DNA of 7,865 nt, taken from contig CACXDR010000187.1 in assembly GCA_902766415.1 (NCBI GenBank), forward strand, positions 1 through 7,865. Reading direction: 5' to 3'. The stretch is from an uncultured Lachnospiraceae bacterium. Lineage in GTDB: Bacteria; Bacillota_A; Clostridia; Lachnospirales; Lachnospiraceae. Numbering within the stretch: position 1 is the first letter of the stretch; the number at the start of each line of letters is the position of its first letter. The notes under the pieces were generated by a model. The model was not told the DNA's origin, searched no databases, and saw nothing but the letters and a program-made list of their open reading frames with translations. Positions 515 through 7,865 of the stretch are shown in pieces. Both the position numbers and the translations under genes were made by a program.

Positions 515-1852
515 TCAGTTTCCGAAGGTCCTGCAGTATTCGCGGTACTCCTCCCGCGTCATGGGAGCCTTGTAGTCCGCGATGATCTGCCTTGCCTCCT
601 TCGCGCCGTCCTTCAGGAGGCGGTAGGCAAGGAGGGCCATCATCTTCGCGGGGACGATATGCGCGACCTCCGGGTCTGTGATCTCATAGTCCTTCGAGTG
701 CAGGGCGCCTCGGCTCCCGCCGAAGGTGAAGTTCAGGACCGGCATGATGGCGAAGAGGTCGCCGACGTCGGTACTCGCGGTGTTGATGTGTCCGGGCGTG
801 ATGGGTGCGACCTTCACGCCGTCTCCAAGGAGCGCCGCGGCGTCCGTCATGACCTGCTGCGGCGCAACCTCCGGGCAGGGCATGTAGCCCTGCGAGTCGA
901 TGATCTCCGCCTCGCAGCCCAGCGCCATCGCCGTCCCCTTGTAGCAGAGGTCCACCTTCCCGGAGGTCTCCATGATGGCCTCCTGGGACAGCGCGCGGAC
1001 CATGGTGTCAAGCACTGCGCGGCTCGGGACTACGTTGATCGCGGTGCCGCCCTCCGTCATGTACGGGTGCACACGCACGCAGTCCTTCTCCTGGAAGGTC
1101 TCCCGGATCATGCCGAGGGCCGCCATGCCGAGGCTTGCGGCGTTCAGCGCGTTGTGCCCGAGGTGCGGCGCGGCGGCAGCGTGCGCGGCCGTCCCGTGGA
1201 TGATGATCCGCTTGCCGATAAAGCCGGTGCAGGCGCTGTTCCCGAGCATAATGTCGATATCGCTGTCGCGGTCCGCCATGAGGGAGTGCGTCGTAATGGA
1301 AAGGTCGATGTCGTCAAACTCTCCGCGGCGGATCAGCTCGCATTTGCCTCCCGCGCAGTGGATGTCGTCGCTCTTCCGCACCTCCTCCTGGACACTGCTC
1401 CCCTGGAACTCCTCCGCGGGGACGGCAAAGATGGTCGCGGTGCCGTCGAGCTCAGCGGCGACCTCCGGGTCGGAAAGCGCGAGCGCGGCGCCGAGCATGC
1501 AGGTGATCTGCGCGTAATGCCCGCAGGCGTGCGCGTAGCCCTTGTCCGTGGCGCACGGGTGCACCGGGCAGGCGATCCCGTCAAGCTCGCCAATGAGGGC
1601 GATGTTCGGGCAGTCCGCCTTCTCCCCGTCCCCGGCCTTCTTCCCGATCTCCGCCCGCACGCCGGTGACCGCGAGGCCTTCCCTGGTCTCAAGGCCCAGC
1701 TTCTTCAGAAAGCCGGAAACGATCTCCGCCGTACGGAATTCGTGGTAGCCCTGCTCCGCGTGCGTGTAGATATCCATCGCAAGCGCCTGGAGCTCGTCCG
1801 CGTGGGCGTCGATGATGTCTATGATCCTCTGTTCTGTCCTGTCCATGCTCAT
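515..1852 (-). CDS. M20 family amidohydrolase, AbgB/PM20D2-like (third hydrolase)
   Basis: This 445-residue cytosolic metallohydrolase is predicted to cleave an amide bond in an N-acyl amino acid or a p-aminobenzoyl-glutamate-like compound. It has no signal peptide. Visible M20 features are GELDGIACP (residues 88-96, Asp91), HACGH (108-112, likely ligands Cys110 and His112), the catalytic/ligand pair EE at 147-148, THS near 188-190, the dimerisation-domain signature TAAHAAAAPHLGHNA (221-235), GGTAINVVPS (268-277), STDVGD (360-365) and LHS at 384-386 (likely last ligand). It is longer than, and clearly diverged from, its two upstream neighbours. The usual HD after ACG is HY here (Tyr113), and the late ED motif is replaced by the STDVGD seen in AbgB-type proteins. 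The start at 1852 overlaps the upstream stop by 4 nt (ATGA) and has GGAGAGG just upstream. A second ATG lies at 1846. The substrate is unproven. Confidence 0.87.
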   Translation of the reverse strand: MSMDRTEQRIIDIIDAHADELQALAMDIYTHAEQGYHEFRTAEIVSGFLKKLGLETREGLAVTGVRAEIGKKAGDGEKADCPNIALIGELDGIACPVHPCATDKGYAHACGHYAQITCMLGAALALSDPEVAAELDGTATIFAVPAEEFQGSSVQEEVRKSDDIHCAGGKCELIRRGEFDDIDLSITTHSLMADRDSDIDIMLGNSACTGFIGKRIIIHGTAAHAAAAPHLGHNALNAASLGMAALGMIRETFQEKDCVRVHPYMTEGGTAINVVPSRAVLDTMVRALSQEAIMETSGKVDLCYKGTAMALGCEAEIIDSQGYMPCPEVAPQQVMTDAAALLGDGVKVAPITPGHINTASTDVGDLFAIMPVLNFTFGGSRGALHSKDYEITDPEVAHIVPAKMMALLAYRLLKDGAKEARQIIADYKAPMTREEYREYCRTFGN

Positions 1853-3030
1853 GCCTCTCCGTTCAGGTAATCAGCCGCGAACTGCGCGTAGATGGCTGTC
1901 CCGTCCTTCAGGATGTCCTCGTCCACGTCGAACGCGGGATGGTGGTGCGTGCACTCGATGCCCTTTGCAATGTTCCTCGCCCCGAGATACCCGAATACGC
2001 CGGGAACGTGCTCCATGTAGACGCTGAAGTCCTCCGCGCCGGTCATCTTCTTCAGCGGGACGAAAGCATCATCCCCTAAGATCCTTCCGGCCGCGCCCTT
2101 CGCGGTCCTGACGAGCGCTTCGTCGTCGTTGATCAGCGGGCTCGGCCCGAAGTAATAGTCGCAGTCCGCGGTGCAGCCGTAGCCTGCGGCGACGTTCTTC
2201 ACGACCTTTTCGATGCGCTCCGGCATGCTCTTCCGGAAATCGCGGTCGAAGGTGCGGACGGTCCCGACCAGCTGCACATGGTCGCAGAGGATATTCTCCT
2301 TGGTCCCGCCGTTCATCATCCCGACGGACACGACAAGGCTGTTCAGCGTGTTGTTCTGGCGGCTCGGGATGTGCTGGAGCGCCATCACGCAGGCGGCTGC
2401 CGCAAGGACCGCGTCGTTTCCGAGCCAGGGCGCGCTTCCGTGCGCCGCGGTGCCGCGAACCTCGATCGTAAAGCGGTCGGAGCACGCCATGCGGTCCCCG
2501 CTTTCAAAGTTCCAGGTGCCGGCGTCAAGGAGCGACCAGACGTGCATCCCGAAGATGGCGTCGACGCCCTCGAGCGCGCCGCGCTTCACATACTCTTCCG
2601 ACTTCCGGCCGATCTCCTCCCCCATCTGGAAAATGAGTTTGACCGTGCCGTTAAGCTCCGGCGCAAGTTCCTTCAGGACGCGCGCGGCACCGAGGAGCAT
2701 GGCGGTGTGGCAGTCGTGCCCGCAGGCGTGCATGACGCCGGGGTTCCTGCTCCCGCAGGCCCTTCCCGGAACCTCGGTGATGGGAAGCGCGTCGATGTCC
2801 GCGCGCAGCATGACCGTCTTTCCGGGCTTCCCGCCCTTGATCGTCGCGACGCAGCCGGTGCAGCCCTCAAAGGTGACGAACGGGATCCCGTCCTTTTCAA
2901 GCTCCTCCGTGATGAGCTTCGTGGTCTCATACTCTTTGCAGCTAAGCTCCGGGTTCGCGTGGAGCCTGTGCCGCAGTTCCTTCACATATGCCTCCTGCGC
3001 GTAAGCGAGTTTTCTGATGTCCTTCATCAT
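1849..3030 (-). CDS. M20D family amidohydrolase (second hydrolase)
   Basis: A 393-residue member of the M20D (HipO / IAA-amino-acid hydrolase / AbgA) group, at the family's usual length. These are cytosolic two-metal enzymes that hydrolyse N-acyl amino acids. Motifs in order: HANPELSCKEYETT (24-37), LRADIDALPITE (75-86), MHACGHDCHTAMLLGAA (100-116, ligands Cys103 and His105), FQMGEE (134-139, catalytic Glu138 and ligand Glu139), GMHVW (161-165, His163), TAAHGSAP (194-201), GAEDFS (331-336) and HHHPAFDVDE (362-371, His363 the likely last ligand). All expected metal and catalytic residues are present. It overlaps the upstream hydrolase by ATGA (3027-3030) and the downstream one by ATGA (1849-1852), which implies translational coupling. 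GGAGG at 3036-3040 serves tandem ATG codons at 3030 and 3027. Either could be the start, and the first is chosen for the overlap. The substrate could be p-aminobenzoyl-glutamate, hippurate-like or another acyl amino acid. Confidence 0.93.
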   Translation of the reverse strand: MMKDIRKLAYAQEAYVKELRHRLHANPELSCKEYETTKLITEELEKDGIPFVTFEGCTGCVATIKGGKPGKTVMLRADIDALPITEVPGRACGSRNPGVMHACGHDCHTAMLLGAARVLKELAPELNGTVKLIFQMGEEIGRKSEEYVKRGALEGVDAIFGMHVWSLLDAGTWNFESGDRMACSDRFTIEVRGTAAHGSAPWLGNDAVLAAAACVMALQHIPSRQNNTLNSLVVSVGMMNGGTKENILCDHVQLVGTVRTFDRDFRKSMPERIEKVVKNVAAGYGCTADCDYYFGPSPLINDDEALVRTAKGAAGRILGDDAFVPLKKMTGAEDFSVYMEHVPGVFGYLGARNIAKGIECTHHHPAFDVDEDILKDGTAIYAQFAADYLNGEA

Positions 3031-4220
3031 TTCTTCCTCCCTTCCGCAGTCTTCTCAAGATAGTCGGCGGCTAACTGCGCGTACTGCGCCGCGCCGACGT
3101 GGAGGAGCTCCTCGTTGATCCGGAACCTCTCGTTATGGACAGGATAGACAGAGCCGGTCGCCTCGTCGTAGCAGCCGATGAACATGAAGAGCGAGGACGG
3201 GATGTGATCCATGATGTAGGAAAAGTCCTCGCTGCCGGAGGCGCGCTCCGTCGTTGCGAGGACATCGTCCCCGTAGAGCTTCTTCGCCGCGTCCCGCGCG
3301 ATCTCGTTCAGCGCGTGGTCCCCGTTGATGACCGGCGGCTCGAGGTAGCGGTAGTCGATCTCGACCGTACAGCCGTACGCCGCGGCTGTCATCTCCGCGA
3401 TCCTGCGCATGTTCTCCTCGACGAGCGACCGCGCTTCCTTGCTGTGGGAGCGCACGGTGCCCTCCATGACGGCGGTGTCCGTGATGATGTTGAACTGGGT
3501 GCCGGCCTTGATCGTGCCGACTGTCACGACAAGCGGGTCGCGCGGGTCGTCGATCCGGCTGACGATCTGCTGGAGGTTCATGATGATGGCGCTTGCGCAG
3601 ACGATCGCGTCCTTCCCGAGATTCGGGGTGGACCCGTGCGCGGAGACGCCGTGGACGGTGATGGTGTAATTGTCGCAGCTTGCCATCATCGGCCCGTCCT
3701 GGATGCAGAGCTTCCCGGAGGGGACGGTGGGCCAGACATGCATGCCCATGGCCGCGTCGACGTCGTCAAGGTATCCCTCGTCCCAGTAGTAATGGCTCCC
3801 GATGAACACCTCCTCGCCCGACTGGAACAGGAGCTTTACGGTGCCCTTCAGCTCCTCCCTCTTCTCATACAAAAGCTTCGCCGCGCCGAGCAGCATGGCA
3901 GTATGGCAGTCGTGCCCGCATGCGTGCATGACGCCGGGGTTCATGCTCTCGAACTCTACGCCGCTCTTCTCCGTGATAGGAAGCGCGTCGATATCCGCGC
4001 GGAGAAGCACGGTCCTTCCGGGCGTGCCGCCCTCGATCACGGCGATGCAGCCGGGATAATCCTCAAAGCGGATGACCGGGATCCCAAGCTCCGTAAGCTT
4101 CTCAACAAGGAATCTCGTGGTCTCGTGCTCCTTCAGCGAAAGCTCCGCGTGGGTGTGGAGAAAACGGCGCGCGGCGATGATCTCGCTGCCGATCTCCGCC
4201 GCTCTTCCGGCAAAATTCAT
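3027..4220 (-). CDS. M20D family amidohydrolase (first hydrolase)
   Basis: A 397-residue M20D amidohydrolase, predicted cytosolic. Motifs: HTHAELSLKEHETT (22-35), LRADIDALPITE (73-84), MHACGHDCHTAMLLGAA (98-114, Cys101 and His103), FQSGEE (132-137, Glu136/Glu137), GMHVWP (159-164, His161), SAHGSTP (193-199), GSEDFSY (329-335) and VHNERFRI (361-368, His362). The full metal site is present. It is closely related to the next gene: the same motifs occur at nearly the same residue numbers, and the DNA around the HACGHD block is also visibly similar. A tandem duplication followed by divergence is therefore likely. The start at 4220 has AAGGAG (4228-4233) 7 nt upstream. It is the first gene after a 106-nt gap from the transporter, so the hydrolases may be expressed at a different level from the carrier. 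Within the family it could act on aroyl- or acyl-amino acids. Which one is not determinable here. Confidence 0.93.
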   Translation of the reverse strand: MNFAGRAAEIGSEIIAARRFLHTHAELSLKEHETTRFLVEKLTELGIPVIRFEDYPGCIAVIEGGTPGRTVLLRADIDALPITEKSGVEFESMNPGVMHACGHDCHTAMLLGAAKLLYEKREELKGTVKLLFQSGEEVFIGSHYYWDEGYLDDVDAAMGMHVWPTVPSGKLCIQDGPMMASCDNYTITVHGVSAHGSTPNLGKDAIVCASAIIMNLQQIVSRIDDPRDPLVVTVGTIKAGTQFNIITDTAVMEGTVRSHSKEARSLVEENMRRIAEMTAAAYGCTVEIDYRYLEPPVINGDHALNEIARDAAKKLYGDDVLATTERASGSEDFSYIMDHIPSSLFMFIGCYDEATGSVYPVHNERFRINEELLHVGAAQYAQLAADYLEKTAEGRKK

Positions 4221-4275
4221 ATATGTCTCCTTTCTGCCTGAATGCCAGGAACTGAAACTTACGTTTCACGCACTA

Positions 4276-4310
4276 AATTGCGGCCGGCTCATAATGAACC
4301 GGCCGCAATT
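4276..4310 (-). promoter_or_regulatory. Intercistronic hairpin between transporter and hydrolase genes
   Basis: A perfect 12-bp inverted repeat (AATTGCGGCCGG at 4276-4287 with CCGGCCGCAATT at 4299-4310) continues inward on the minus strand as four further pairs (one G-U), leaving a 3-nt TTA loop. This gives about 16 bp of very stable stem. Only three T follow the stem on the minus strand, so it is a poor full terminator. It better fits a partial terminator, a processing site or a 3' stabiliser of the transporter message. A TATAAT on the minus strand at 4311-4316 has only a weak -35 partner, so an internal promoter is possible but not well supported. Confidence 0.6.
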
Positions 4311-4326
4311 ATTATATCACATTTGA

Positions 4327-5880
4327 TCAAAGGAAGATCTTTCCGCCAGGGCCAAGCGGCAGGTTCAGGGTGACCCACACAATGACCTGGAGGATCCAGA
4401 TGATCGCGAACGTGATGGAATACGGCAGCATGTTCGCGATGACCGTGCCGAGTCCGACGTCCTTCTGGTACTTACGTCCGAATCCGAGGAGGACAGGGGT
4501 GTAGGTGAACAGCGGGGACAGCGGGTTCGTGATGGAATCGCCGATACGGTAGACGACCTGCGTGATCGCCGGGTCATAGCCGAGCAGCATCATCATCGGG
4601 ACAAAGACCGGAGCGAGGATCGCCCACTTCGCGGAAGCGGAGCCGATGAAGATGTTGACGATGCAGGACAGGAAGATCAGTCCGATCAGCAGCGGGACGC
4701 CGGTGAAGCCGATGTTGCTCAGGAAGCTCGCGCCGCTGATGGCAAGGATGGTGCCGAGCTTACTGACGGAGAAGAAGTTCGTGAAGATGGAGATGAAGAA
4801 GCACATGAACACGTAGTTGCCCATCTCAGCGAAGCCCTGGGAGCAGTCCGCCCAGACGTCCTTGTCGTTCTTGTACTTGCCGATCGAGAAGCCGTAGCAG
4901 AGGCCGGGGATCAGCAGGGCAAGAGTGACGGTGAAGACGATACCCTTGGAGAACGGAGCTGCGCCTGCGGTGATGCTGTCAGCCTCACCTGCGAGGATCG
5001 GCTTGCCGTCGACCAGCGGGAACGCGGACAGGACGATCATGATGATAATGAAGATCAGGAAGCCGATGCCGGCCGCGCGGAGCGCCTTGTCCTGCTCGGG
5101 GGTGATGTTGGCGGCGTTCTCATCGAAGTCGTGCTGTGCCAGCTCTTCCTTCGTGATCGGGAAACGGTGAAGCAGGACCTTCTCGACCAGGATCGTGCCT
5201 GCGATCGTAAGAAGGAAGCAGGAAACGATAAGGAAATACCAGTTGATCGCGATGGACTCCGAGTAGTTCGGGTCGATCATCTGTGCCGCGGACTCGGTGA
5301 AGCCGTAAGCCAGCGCGTCAGACAGGCCGAGCATGACGTTCGCGCAGAAGCCTGCGGCGACGGATGCGAAGCCTGCGTACAGGCCGAGCATCGGATGGCG
5401 CCCGATGGACATGAACAGGATCGCTGCCAGCGGCGGAAGGACGATGAAGCCCGCGTCGCCCGCGACGTTCAGGTTGATGCCGAGGAACATGACGACCATC
5501 GTGACGATCCATCCCTTGGACTTGCCGAGGAACTTCTCCATGAAGGCGACCAGGAAGCCGCTCTTCTCAGCGACGGACGAACCGATGACGGCGACAAGGA
5601 CCATGCCGAGCGGCGCGAAGCCTGAGAAGTTGGTGATGACGTTGGTCCAGAGATACTGGATGCCTGCGATGGAAAGCAGGTTGAAGACTGTGATCGTCTC
5701 TCCGTTGGACGGATTGACTGCGGATACGCCTGCCGCGGAGCAGATCGCCGAAACGATCGCGACGACGACTGCCAGTCCGAGGAACATGGTGATCGGATCG
5801 GGCAGCTTGTTACCGGCACGCTCTACGGCGTCCAGTATTTTGTCAAGCGTACTCTTTTTGACATTGCTGTTGTCTGCCAT
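4327..5880 (-). CDS. abgT: AbgT-family transporter (p-aminobenzoyl-glutamate type)
   Basis: A 517-residue polytopic inner-membrane protein of the AbgT/MtrF family. E. coli AbgT takes up p-aminobenzoyl-glutamate, while Neisseria MtrF and Alcanivorax YdaH were described as sulfonamide/antimetabolite exporters. Family marks include the amphipathic N-terminus with ERAGNKLPDP (20-29), NVAGDAGFIVLPPLAA (138-153), GRHP (160-163), a cytoplasmic charged loop near 240-268, GSASAKWAILAP (413-424), GYDPAITQ (434-441) and YRIGDSITNPLSPL (444-457). From memory, the functional MtrF residues Ser417, Trp420, Pro438, Arg446, Asp449 and Pro457 each have a counterpart here one position lower (Ser416, Trp419, Pro437, Arg445, Asp448, Pro456). 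The length is as expected and nothing looks broken. AAGGAG at 5887-5892 sits 6 nt before the ATG. Linkage to three amidohydrolases favours import of an amide-linked substrate. Direction and exact ligand are inferred, not seen. Confidence 0.93.
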   Translation of the reverse strand: MADNSNVKKSTLDKILDAVERAGNKLPDPITMFLGLAVVVAIVSAICSAAGVSAVNPSNGETITVFNLLSIAGIQYLWTNVITNFSGFAPLGMVLVAVIGSSVAEKSGFLVAFMEKFLGKSKGWIVTMVVMFLGINLNVAGDAGFIVLPPLAAILFMSIGRHPMLGLYAGFASVAAGFCANVMLGLSDALAYGFTESAAQMIDPNYSESIAINWYFLIVSCFLLTIAGTILVEKVLLHRFPITKEELAQHDFDENAANITPEQDKALRAAGIGFLIFIIIMIVLSAFPLVDGKPILAGEADSITAGAAPFSKGIVFTVTLALLIPGLCYGFSIGKYKNDKDVWADCSQGFAEMGNYVFMCFFISIFTNFFSVSKLGTILAISGASFLSNIGFTGVPLLIGLIFLSCIVNIFIGSASAKWAILAPVFVPMMMLLGYDPAITQVVYRIGDSITNPLSPLFTYTPVLLGFGRKYQKDVGLGTVIANMLPYSITFAIIWILQVIVWVTLNLPLGPGGKIFL

Positions 5881-6261: not shown

Positions 6262-6957
6262 TCAGACCGGTATATCCGTTGCCGACGAATCCCTGACACG
6301 CTTCAGGGCGCGCAGGTCGAGCCAGATCACGTAGAAAACGAAGAAAATGCCGAGCAGCGCGCTCTGGGTGCTCAGGACAAAGTCATAGGTCCCGTGGAGG
6401 ATCAGCGGGATCCACAGCGCGCACTTAAGGAAGGACCGGCTCCCTCCCGCATCTCCGAGGTTCGCGAGGCGTTTTGCCTCTCCGTAGTAATAGCCCATGA
6501 TGATGCCGAAGGTGCAGTGGCCCGGGATACTGGTCACAGCGCGCACGACCGCCACAACGATCCCCCCCACGCCGGAGGAAAAGACGTACATGACGTTCTC
6601 AAGCAGCGCGAAGCCGAGCGATACGGCCGCGCAGTAGACGATGCCGTCGAAGCGGTAATTGAATTCCGGATTTCTCCAGGTGATGTTCTTTGCGGCAAGA
6701 TACTTGAAGCCTTCCTCGCTGAGACCGACGCAGAGGAAGTTCACCGCGAGAAGGAACAGGGTCCCGCTCCCGAAAACGGCCTGCGCGATGCCGATCAGGA
6801 TCCGCTCCGCGATGGCGCACGGAAATGTGATCAGCATGCCCGCAAGAAGGAGCTTCCACACGAGCTTCTTCGGCTCCTTTTCGATCTTGTCCAGGTTATA
6901 GATCCGGTACATCAGGTACAGCGGCGGGACGACCGCGACCATAAGAAGTATCGACAT
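6262..6957 (-). CDS. PrsW-family intramembrane metalloprotease
   Basis: A 231-residue multi-pass membrane protein with the hallmark motifs of the PrsW/CPBP-like family: EExxK at 81-85 (EEGFK), FxxxEN at 116-121 (FALLEN), a PGH at 145-147 and HxxxD at 188-192 (HGTYD). These are the proposed metal and catalytic residues, and all are intact. Hydrophobic segments lie at about 2-18, 34-50, 53-79, 104-125, 130-145, 178-195 and 199-213. B. subtilis PrsW performs the first cut of the anti-sigma factor RsiW. The wider family is mostly uncharacterised, so the substrate here is unknown. No sigma/anti-sigma gene lies in the window. AAGGAG (6965-6970) stands 7 nt before the ATG at 6957, and a good promoter lies 33 nt upstream. 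It is divergent from the CarD-like gene. The last residues, rich in Arg, are predicted to be cytoplasmic. Confidence 0.88.
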   Translation of the reverse strand: MSILLMVAVVPPLYLMYRIYNLDKIEKEPKKLVWKLLLAGMLITFPCAIAERILIGIAQAVFGSGTLFLLAVNFLCVGLSEEGFKYLAAKNITWRNPEFNYRFDGIVYCAAVSLGFALLENVMYVFSSGVGGIVVAVVRAVTSIPGHCTFGIIMGYYYGEAKRLANLGDAGGSRSFLKCALWIPLILHGTYDFVLSTQSALLGIFFVFYVIWLDLRALKRVRDSSATDIPV

Positions 6958-7058: not shown

Positions 7059-7088
7059 CTTACATCTTCCGTTGTAAAGTGCTAAAAT
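7059..7088 (+). promoter_or_regulatory. Promoter of the CarD-family gene
   Basis: TAAAAT (7083-7088) is a good -10 box. CTTACA (7059-7064, 18-nt spacer) or TTACAT (7060-7065, 17-nt spacer) serves as -35. The predicted start near 7095 leaves a very short leader carrying GGAGGT at 7099-7104. The -10 boxes of this promoter and the divergent protease promoter are under 90 nt apart, with the two -35 elements about 40 nt apart. Confidence 0.65.
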
Positions 7089-7110
7089 GTTAACCAGTGG
7101 AGGTAAAACT

Positions 7111-7629
7111 ATGTATAATGTCAACGATCTGGTCGTATATGAAGGCTCCGGCGTGTGTAAGGTCGAGGACATCCGCGACATGACCTTTTCCGATGCTGCC
7201 CCGAAGGCTTACTATGTCCTGAGGCCTCTCTTCTCAAATGACGGCACCATCTACACGCCGGTCGGAAACAACAAGGTCACGCTCCGCCCGGTCATCACGA
7301 AGGAGGAGGCGGTCGAGATCATCCGCCATATCCCGGAAACGGAGGTCTGCTCCTTCGACGGGCTCCGTCCGGTCGAGCTTGAAAACCAGTACCGTAAGGC
7401 CTCCGCAAGCCACTGCCTGAAGGATATGATCCCGCTGATCATGGCGATCCATAAGAAGACCCGTGCGGTAAAGCGGGCCGGGAAAAAAGTCAGCGAGGTG
7501 GACGGGCGGTATCTTAAGAAGCTGAGCGACCTGATCAACGGCGAGCTTTCCATTGCGCTCGGGATCGCGAAGGACGAGGTTCCGGAGTATATCGCGGAGG
7601 CGGTAAAGAAGGAAAAAGAAAAGAAATAA
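7111..7629 (+). CDS. CarD/CdnL-family RNA polymerase-binding transcription regulator
   Basis: A 172-residue cytosolic protein. The N-terminal third (about 1-60, beginning MYNVNDLVVYEGSGVCKVED) matches the CarD/TRCF RNA polymerase-interaction domain, a Tudor-like fold that binds the beta subunit. The rest (about 64-165) is helical and basic (for example HKKTRAVKRAGKK at 114-126), as in the CarD DNA-binding domain that contacts the upstream edge of the promoter bubble. The tail is a Lys/Glu-rich stretch. Known CarD/CdnL proteins stabilise open complexes and tune housekeeping (often rRNA) promoters. Many Firmicutes carry several shorter paralogs of unclear role. The start at 7111 is chosen because GGAGGT (7099-7104) sits 6 nt before it. 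The in-frame ATG at 7087 overlaps the -10 box and lacks a ribosome binding site. It is followed by the palindromic element, which probably terminates it. Confidence 0.9.
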   Translation: MYNVNDLVVYEGSGVCKVEDIRDMTFSDAAPKAYYVLRPLFSNDGTIYTPVGNNKVTLRPVITKEEAVEIIRHIPETEVCSFDGLRPVELENQYRKASASHCLKDMIPLIMAIHKKTRAVKRAGKKVSEVDGRYLKKLSDLINGELSIALGIAKDEVPEYIAEAVKKEKEKK

Positions 7630-7693
7630 AACGGCTGACGCGAAGCTTATGAGAAGCGGCGACTGACGCGAAGCAATGTTGAAGCGACGACTC

Positions 7694-7726
7694 GGGAGGG
7701 GAAGTGCTGTAAGCACTTCCCCTCCC
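7694..7726. repeat. Perfect 15-bp hairpin I inside the palindromic element
   Basis: Arm 7694-7708 (GGGAGGGGAAGTGCT) is the exact reverse complement of 7712-7726, with a GTA loop. ACGA at 7687-7690 could add four more pairs with TCGT at 7727-7730 over a 3-nt bulge, competing with the outer stem. No T-run follows on either strand, so alone it is not a classical terminator. Confidence 0.9.
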
Positions 7727-7727
7727 T

Positions 7728-7753
7728 CGTGTCACGGCATTCGCCGTGACACG
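7728..7753. repeat. Perfect 11-bp hairpin II inside the palindromic element
   Basis: CGTGTCACGGC (7728-7738) and GCCGTGACACG (7743-7753) pair perfectly around an ATTC loop. It abuts hairpin I (one base between) and hairpin III (no gap), which suits coaxial stacking in a branched fold. Confidence 0.9.
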
Positions 7754-7818
7754 GACTGACAAGAGAGGAGCCTGAGAGAGCATGCTAGCATGCTTCTCCG
7801 GCTCCTCTCTTGTCAGTC
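7754..7818. repeat. Long hairpin III (19-bp stem with inner palindrome)
   Basis: Arms 7754-7772 and 7800-7818 are perfectly complementary over 19 bp, with AGAGAGGAGCC within the left arm. The apical part holds a 16-nt self-complementary sequence (7779-7794, AGCATGCTAGCATGCT), so most of the 65 nt can pair. The outermost four pairs use 7815-7818, which the large outer stem also needs, so the two helices can exchange bases. Confidence 0.9.
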
Positions 7819-7865
7819 GTCGCTTCTCATTGCTTCGCGTCAGTTTTTGAACGAATGTATCGGGC

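Follow-up and report, generated by a model that had tools for sequence, protein, structure and literature searches.

The window analysed here (the whole 7,865-nt stretch from an uncultured Lachnospiraceae bacterium) ends in a densely palindromic sequence behind a CarD-family gene, which raises the question of what this sequence is and how it came to lie there. We consider it likely that positions 7632-7848 hold an old, elongated copy of a family that is sister to Clostridiales-1 (RF01699 in Rfam) and spread as a miniature transposon, and that this copy probably now acts as a two-way terminator. According to this explanation, a family of branched palindromes extends throughout the Lachnospiraceae, its members consisting of a closing helix P1 and the arms P2, P3, and P4 with almost no spacers, and the window's branch would have spread as a non-autonomous transposon in the same manner as Clostridiales-1.

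The element starts two bases past the CarD stop, and its right arm contains the putative stop codon of a second gene on the minus strand, so that it fills the gap between two convergent genes (Table 1). From seven residues and synteny we infer that this second gene encodes a DUF711 protein. The ending found in the window also occurs at loci of G001 (Fusobacterium naviforme; L001 and L170) and G006 (L130), and the G001 protein carrying it matches PF05167 (DUF711) with an E value of 1e-196. Both genomes belong to the nearest genus compared (seven genomes, G001-G007), which is not necessarily the window species' own genus, the window CarD being at most 57% identical to the CarD proteins found there. 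A CarD relative is present in five of the seven genomes (only a remote one, with 26% identity, in G004), and the search of these seven genomes found none in G006 and G007. In G001, CarD, a diverged element, and DUF711 follow each other in the order of the window. Since a diverged copy occupies the same site there, the window copy is presumably old, and the element has probably long been resident between CarD and DUF711. The pair is also present in G002, where the DUF711 ending is IHSFRN and an arm-like P2-P3-P4 series lies in between, in a gap in which our covariance model R1 (see below) finds no match. In G003 and G005, CarD is followed by other sequence with, by eye, a plain terminator-like hairpin, and at the G006 locus the CarD side is lost at the contig start. 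Between CarD and the element, G001 also carries a tandem array of partial units of about 78 nt with palindromes (L001, 8507-8820).

Other features of the window are given here for completeness. According to Pfam, three M20-family peptidase genes in a row and then an AbgT-type transporter gene occupy positions 515-5880 (minus strand), apparently a cluster for uptake and cleavage in which the M20 genes are paralogues, and a PrsW-type intramembrane protease gene (6262-6957, minus strand) is the neighbour of CarD. Strong inverted repeats at 285-338 and 4276-4310 (arms of 25 and 17 bp, loops of 4 and 1 nt) look like ordinary terminator-like hairpins.

Table 1. Coordinates of the parts of the element and of the adjoining genes in the window.
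Feature	Position	Strand	Description	Basis
CarD-family gene	7087..7629	+	ATG 7087 or 7111, stop 7627-7629	PF02559, E 3e-12
A-rich stretch	7613..7631	-	CarD end and the next two bases	direct reading
Unit 1	7632..7659	+	outermost copy on the left (28 nt), able to pair with the right arm	
Unit 2	7660..7692	+	5' strand of closing helix P1 (7662-7678, 7681-7692)	
P2	7691..7729	-	hairpin 7694-7708/7712-7726 (15 bp, perfect, loop 3)	
P3	7728..7753	+	hairpin 7728-7738/7743-7753 (11 bp, perfect, loop 4, ATTC)	
P4	7754..7818	+	stem 7754-7772/7800-7818 (19 bp, perfect) with inner hairpin	
Unit 3	7812..7844	-	inverted copy: right arm, 3' strand of P1 and tail CATTGCTTCGCGTCAG	
C-terminal end of convergent gene (inferred DUF711)	7840..7865	-	...PIHSFKN, stop 7840-7842	ending and synteny
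TTTTT	7844..7848	+	directly 3' of P1; the CarD transcript may end here	direct reading

The preliminary description of this locus had reported two abutting 28-nt direct repeats with a third, inverted copy, three perfect hairpins of 15, 11, and 19 bp with hardly any spacer, a geometry resembling a four-way junction of about 183 nt, and a terminal TTTTT. All of these are present; of the span that it gave, 7635-7848, the end is correct and the start is not, as the repeat begins three bases earlier. The abutting units (7632-7659 and 7660-7687) are identical at 20 of 28 positions. Unit 2 is the perfect complement of 7828-7844 and 7815-7826 and is paired in the predicted fold of both strands, where the outer stem (7662-7678/7828-7844, 17 bp, perfect) is continued by a perfect stem of 12 bp (7681-7692/7815-7826). 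Only 8 of the 12 bp form when the fold is predicted, and the rest of 7815-7818 goes to the third hairpin, the first bases of unit 3 also belonging to P4. Unit 1 can likewise pair with the right arm (7635-7646/7832-7843 and 7649-7667/7812-7830) and occupies the position at which Clostridiales-1 copies outside the nearest genus carry their left terminal inverted repeat. Terminal inverted repeats, which are a mark of miniature inverted-repeat transposons (MITEs), are thus present in the element in the sense that units 1 and 2 are both complementary to the right arm. At the base of P2, CTCG (7691-7694) lies opposite CTCG (7726-7729), which on the minus strand amounts to CGAG facing CGAG.

For the junction at 7662-7844, a single four-way fold with a closing helix and three arms joined almost directly is predicted on either strand. 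The predicted folding energy of the plus strand is -160.2 kcal/mol versus a mean of -81.2 kcal/mol for shuffled sequences (z -15.5), and the minus strand reaches a z of -17.4; in both cases, none of 200 shuffles was as stable. Among 154 segments of 214 nt, the element has the lowest energy (-158 versus -102 for the best non-overlapping one).

According to the preliminary description, a single copy with neither homologues nor covariation and with no transcript across it would be just an isolated terminator. Related Lachnospiraceae were compared by BLAST. The closest sequence matches lie in the P3 region: 7725-7752 recurs without a difference (28 of 28 bases) twice in G007, a third place there has 26 identical bases, and G006 has two matches (24 bases, 96%); the right arm is matched with 91% identity over 32 query bases in G007 and with 96% over 25 in G006. 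The element is thus not unique. The relatives found are consistent with the Lachnospiraceae host that the preliminary description assumed. These matches fall in two G007 loci on different contigs (L128 and L129) and in one G006 locus (L130), and a weaker BLAST match led to a further G006 locus (L131). All four loci show the part order of the window, and their P2 and P4 sequences differ from those of the window, yet the pairing is kept. Across 397 genomes of the family, BLAST matches were found in 7. Of six BLAST places outside G007, three (L164, L165, and L167) hold a shorter form of the element, and three (L166, L168, and L169) were set aside because no such element was seen there by eye. In plasmids and phages, BLAST with the window element returned only short pieces with E values of at least 0.6.

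To go beyond sequence identity, the covariance model R1 was built from five better-aligned relatives with the window excluded. R1 matches the window with 44.7 bits (E 1e-8) and also L128, L129, L130, and L133; G007, with its two window-like loci, has five R1 matches. In the window, R1 pairs the sequence in a shifted register starting at 7701, within P2, and the window's link to the family therefore rests mainly on L128-L130. At E <= 0.001, R1 matches were found in 119 of 250 Lachnospiraceae genomes, with copy numbers of at least 13, at least 13, and at least 12 in the richest genomes; as at most 13 candidates were scored per genome, these counts are lower bounds. As a negative control, 23 viral contigs (177,731 bases) gave no R1 match at E <= 10. 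The 23 exact TGACGCGAAGCAATG stretches seen in these contigs were taken for chance.

The fold itself is conserved beyond its sequence. In 74 aligned R1-type copies (73 distinct), 90.1% of the cells hold standard pairs, both partners change in 34 of 36 pairs, and the covariation score is 0.668 versus 0.185 for shuffled alignments and at most 0.115 with slid partners. The alignment was fitted to R1, so these figures lean towards the model, but within P1 alone the variants GCCATGC/GCATGGC, GCAGTGC/GCACTGC, and GCCACGC/GCGTGGC are found. The four-helix layout recurs among the folds of R1-type copies, most of the 74 having been inspected. In several relatives, P4 resembles a terminator, its 5' arm being rich in A and its 3' arm rich in T. 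A relaxed form of the P2 motif, CTC[GA]...YTC[GA], is present in 54 of 62 non-redundant copies versus 10.7 in shuffles, and the strict form CTCG...CTCG, which the window has, in 27 of the 62. Read on the minus strand of P2, the facing CGAG sequences could, we assume, form tandem G.A pairs. The 60 R1-type regions fetched were chosen from the top matches and from genomes with many copies and are not a random sample. In two such genomes, the flanks are shared as well: AAACCATAATTT stands on both sides of several copies in G112 (L216-L222), and a right flank like CAAA[CT]CGGAATTT accompanies most copies in G149 (L206-L215), many of the copies in both genomes lying at contig ends. The moving unit of the R1-type branch may, judging from such flanks, be longer than the folded core.

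Searched with Rfam at the models' own cut-offs, the window gives no match, and RF01699 itself (gathering cut-off 48 bits) gives none either. The 32 microRNA matches in the window and one snoRNA match (33 in all at E 10) are generic hairpins far below the cut-offs. The relation to Clostridiales-1 becomes visible through the relatives: RF01699 matches L128 on the opposite strand over the whole model with 60.9 bits, above the cut-off, and L249 (44.2 bits) and L259 (31.3 bits) below it, again over the full model and on the opposite strand. In total, 3 of the 30 R1-type loci scored match RF01699 (thresholds E <= 1 or E <= 0.01). Conversely, R1 gives partial or weak matches in 22 of 40 RF01699-type loci, the best of which (L278, 26.5 bits, E 8.5e-5) covers part of the model. 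Because few R1-type loci match RF01699 and R1 barely matches canonical copies, the two look like sister branches of one layout, with the window outside the Rfam model, and not like one tight family.

RF01699 is itself widespread and multi-copy, with matches above the cut-off in 110 of 250 Lachnospiraceae genomes. At most 10 candidates were scored per genome in this survey, which makes its copy numbers lower bounds. In G238, a single contig of 3.4 Mb, 31 matches were found at E <= 0.001, 14 of them above the cut-off, and G108, G001, G006, and G007 have 15, 19, 10, and 4 matches, respectively. Of 118 genomes sampled across the class, 4 match, and these had already been part of the family samples; none of 14 control genomes gives a match. 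No RF01699-type copies were found in plasmids. Sixteen unannotated 'Bacteriophage sp.' records (H23-H37, MT837121.1 and others) contain partial Clostridiales-1 copies with up to 96.4% identity; all those listed come from human faeces, no transposase was found adjoining the copies in these records, and they represent genuine phage copies or else bacterial sequence deposited under a phage label. Head-to-tail arrays of two or three Clostridiales-1 copies were also observed (L281 and L276 in G001, L271 in G238).

How such a family multiplies can be read from the ends of its copies. In G238 and in most of 20 regions from other genomes (each the top or a near-top match of its genome), Clostridiales-1 copies start near GATGTTGGGGTCAAAAG and finish at or close to CTTTTGACCCTGG[TC]ATC, and the two ends are partly inverted repeats of each other; a parent insertion sequence would be expected to have the ends GATGTTGGGGTCAAAAGG and GATACCAGGGTCAAAAGG. 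Target duplication was assessed by comparing the bases directly after the element with those just before it in 37 of 40 RF01699-type loci, leaving out the tandem arrays L271 and L281 as well as L292, which a contig end truncates. Outside the nearest genus, 28 copies were compared: 16 are bounded at both ends by a perfect direct repeat of 7-10 bp, and the other 12 have no perfect repeat, some showing by eye a repeat with one mismatch. For comparison, 1.5% of 1332 mismatched flank pairs reach 7 bases. A 17th copy with at least 7 bp (L276) was counted as chance, its repeat not being at the element's end. None of the 9 RF01699 copies of the nearest genus is bounded by a target duplication; the nearest-genus copies inspected also showed no left end motif. 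Shortened derivatives in G238 (L311, L312, and L322) have kept both ends and lost much of the core; L311 is flanked by the perfect direct repeat ATCAGAAT, L322 by ATCATAT, and L312 by an imperfect repeat. Given these derivatives and the duplicated targets, Clostridiales-1 copies outside the nearest genus are, on sequence grounds, best read as having spread as non-autonomous transposons. A search of G238 by end pattern found no full-length autonomous transposon with Clostridiales-1 ends.

For the window copy itself, the flanks, read directly, show no visible target duplication. The idea of a non-autonomous mobile repeat put forward in the preliminary description thus holds for the wider family, which is multi-copy and has target duplications in its Clostridiales-1 branch, and is not borne out by the flanks of the window copy or of the copies in the nearest genus. 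Its alternative of successive palindromes nested into each other was rejected because each of the three hairpins is the counterpart of a fixed helix in the single fold that the relatives share.

The direct repeat at the left end would have arisen when part of the left P1 arm was duplicated; duplications of this kind recur in the family, and on the left side only. Among 64 R1-type loci whose left flank was long enough, 23 have part of the element repeated in tandem on that side; on the right, no such copy was found in 68 R1-type loci. The window's 28-nt repeat scores 12.5 in the same test (threshold 18, best shuffled 13) and is, by its sequence, apparently a weaker case of this left-side duplication.

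Most likely, the element now terminates transcription arriving from either side and stabilises the 3' ends of the transcripts of both convergent genes, as suggested by the T tracts at both ends and by its place between the two stops. By direct reading, the outer stem runs directly into TTTTT on the plus strand, and the A-rich stretch before unit 1, read on the minus strand, is a T-rich tract past the structure and hence a possible termination tract for the opposite transcript. A simple terminator scan limited to loops of 3-8 nt found none. In the family at large, copies occur in all orientations relative to genes (according to crude open-frame calls), and as they are not confined to convergent gene ends, termination is not the family's common purpose. 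A stop codon within 16 nt outside the right end was found in 15 of 68 R1-type loci versus 2 of 51 on the left; this excess is suggestive, four of the 15 being G149 copies that share their right flank and two being one place in sister genomes.

The strand of the putative RNA was addressed after merging near-identical copies (74 to 62 for R1-type and 40 to 30 for Clostridiales-1). In folds without wobble pairs, the plus strand encloses 7 G-T versus 25 A-C mismatches in the 62 R1-type copies (p 0.002) and 6 versus 20 in the 30 Clostridiales-1 copies (p 0.009); an earlier run on 12 Clostridiales-1 copies had given 4 versus 5. The count on consensus pairs (alignment A4) points in the opposite direction (90 versus 50), with 51 of the 90 in two columns, and without these two columns it becomes 39 versus 49. 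The two tests thus disagree on the RNA strand, and of the earlier proposal of a structured RNA at the end of the CarD message, the conserved and covarying fold stands, with the strand tests at variance.

These observations bear on several other explanations. That the family is a small regulatory RNA of the kind Rfam lists, whose folded transcript acts and whose multiplication is secondary, seems unlikely to us. It would account for the strong covariation, for the conserved P2 motif with its possible tandem G.A pairs on the minus strand, and for the larger number of G-T than A-C mismatches that the fold-based test finds on that strand, and it agrees with the Rfam type ('Gene; sRNA') and with the table of the 2010 discovery paper, in which Clostridiales-1 is entered as probably RNA and not cis-regulatory (Weinberg et al. 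2010, PMC2864571). It does not sit well with many copies per genome, target duplications, and shortened derivatives; moreover, the consensus-pair count either contradicts the fold-based result or favours neither strand, and no promoter-like site was found in 7400-7865. More doubtful still, in our judgement, is a REP-like element mobilised in single-stranded form by a RAYT or an IS200/IS605-type Y1 transposase. Palindromic folds in many copies would be in line with such movement, as would the R1-type branch, in which no clear target duplication was seen by eye in the flanks inspected, but beyond the nearest genus, Clostridiales-1 copies have terminal inverted repeats and target duplications, as expected of a cut-and-paste DDE transposase.

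A local terminator whose inverted duplications arose in place, with no dispersed family behind it, would explain the exact position between two convergent stops and why the P2 and P4 sequences are unlike those of other copies. This is highly improbable and largely refuted by the two G007 loci with an identical P3 region, one of which also has the right arm in the same order, by the matches of R1 to the window and of RF01699 to L128, and by the recurrence of the four-helix layout in relatives. The compact four-way junction, very stable on both strands, could also be imagined as a DNA cruciform for a recombinase or a replication protein (an att-like or origin-like site), a notion to which we give hardly any credence, since no integrase or replication gene was detected among seven proteins (six from the window) searched with Pfam and relatives carry many copies per genome. 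Compared with these explanations, an old copy of a miniature transposon family now serving as a terminator accounts for the locus in our preferred reading. A bolder version, which we put forward tentatively and regard as possible rather than probable, is that the only cargo of these miniature transposons is an RNA that folds into a four-way junction with a tandem G.A helix, and that selection preserves the folded transcript while allowing its sequence and position to change.

Were such a transposable RNA fold real, ready-made 3' ends, each a terminator with a protective fold, would be planted behind genes throughout the family, and the elements would grow by partial modules added on one fixed side. 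For Clostridiales-1, so far a small RNA in Rfam, the copies examined suggest a dispersed miniature transposon with a conserved fold, so that the annotation of its genome matches would need to change, and the window reveals a sister branch that the Rfam model misses. It thereby becomes a testable question what selection maintains: the folded transcript, the DNA ends, or the two together. In the literature searched, which leaves most subscription journals outside, we found no account of Clostridiales-1 as a transposon, and a term search of the main text of PMC2864571 returned nothing on transposition or repeats for it. Elsewhere, passages of a paper on short tandem repeats mention human matches to the Clostridiales-1 motif, another paper is seen to use the family within a training set, and the Rfam 12 paper remarks in one place that MITEs in eukaryotes can be mistaken for microRNAs.

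Among known systems, Clostridiales-1 shares with the window's element the order of the helices (P1, P2, P3, P4, read on the opposite strand), the short-joint layout, which is that of the window fold, an unpaired internal loop in P2, the multi-copy nature, the bacterial family, and, in many copies, a GCAAGC-type inner hairpin in P4. It differs in that P3 has about 17-24 pairs in canonical copies versus 11 in the window (and 5 in most R1-type folds), and in that the P1 arms of the window are longer and of unlike sequence, the GATGTTGGGGTCAAAAG left end being absent. Bacterial MITEs, as far as they are outlined in the relevant part of PMC3049150, are likewise short, gene-free, highly paired elements with complementary ends and with target duplications, which are seen here in the Clostridiales-1 branch; in contrast to them, the present family has four helices conserved between species by compensatory change, beyond what the ends alone would need, and the end-pattern search of G238 found no autonomous partner. 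Bidirectional intrinsic terminators also lie between convergent stops; their GC-rich stem with a T tract on each strand has a possible counterpart here in the outer stem and its flanking tracts, whereas a 183-nt four-way junction replaces the single hairpin and family copies are also found elsewhere. Among modular folded repeats already described, the BOX element of Streptococcus pneumoniae is the closest analogue that we found; the same part of PMC3049150 portrays it as modular, with a variable number of inner modules, and as strongly folded when transcribed. The likeness, drawn from that description and not from sequence, lies in modularity and strong folding, and the difference is that in the present family the extra modules accumulate on one side only.
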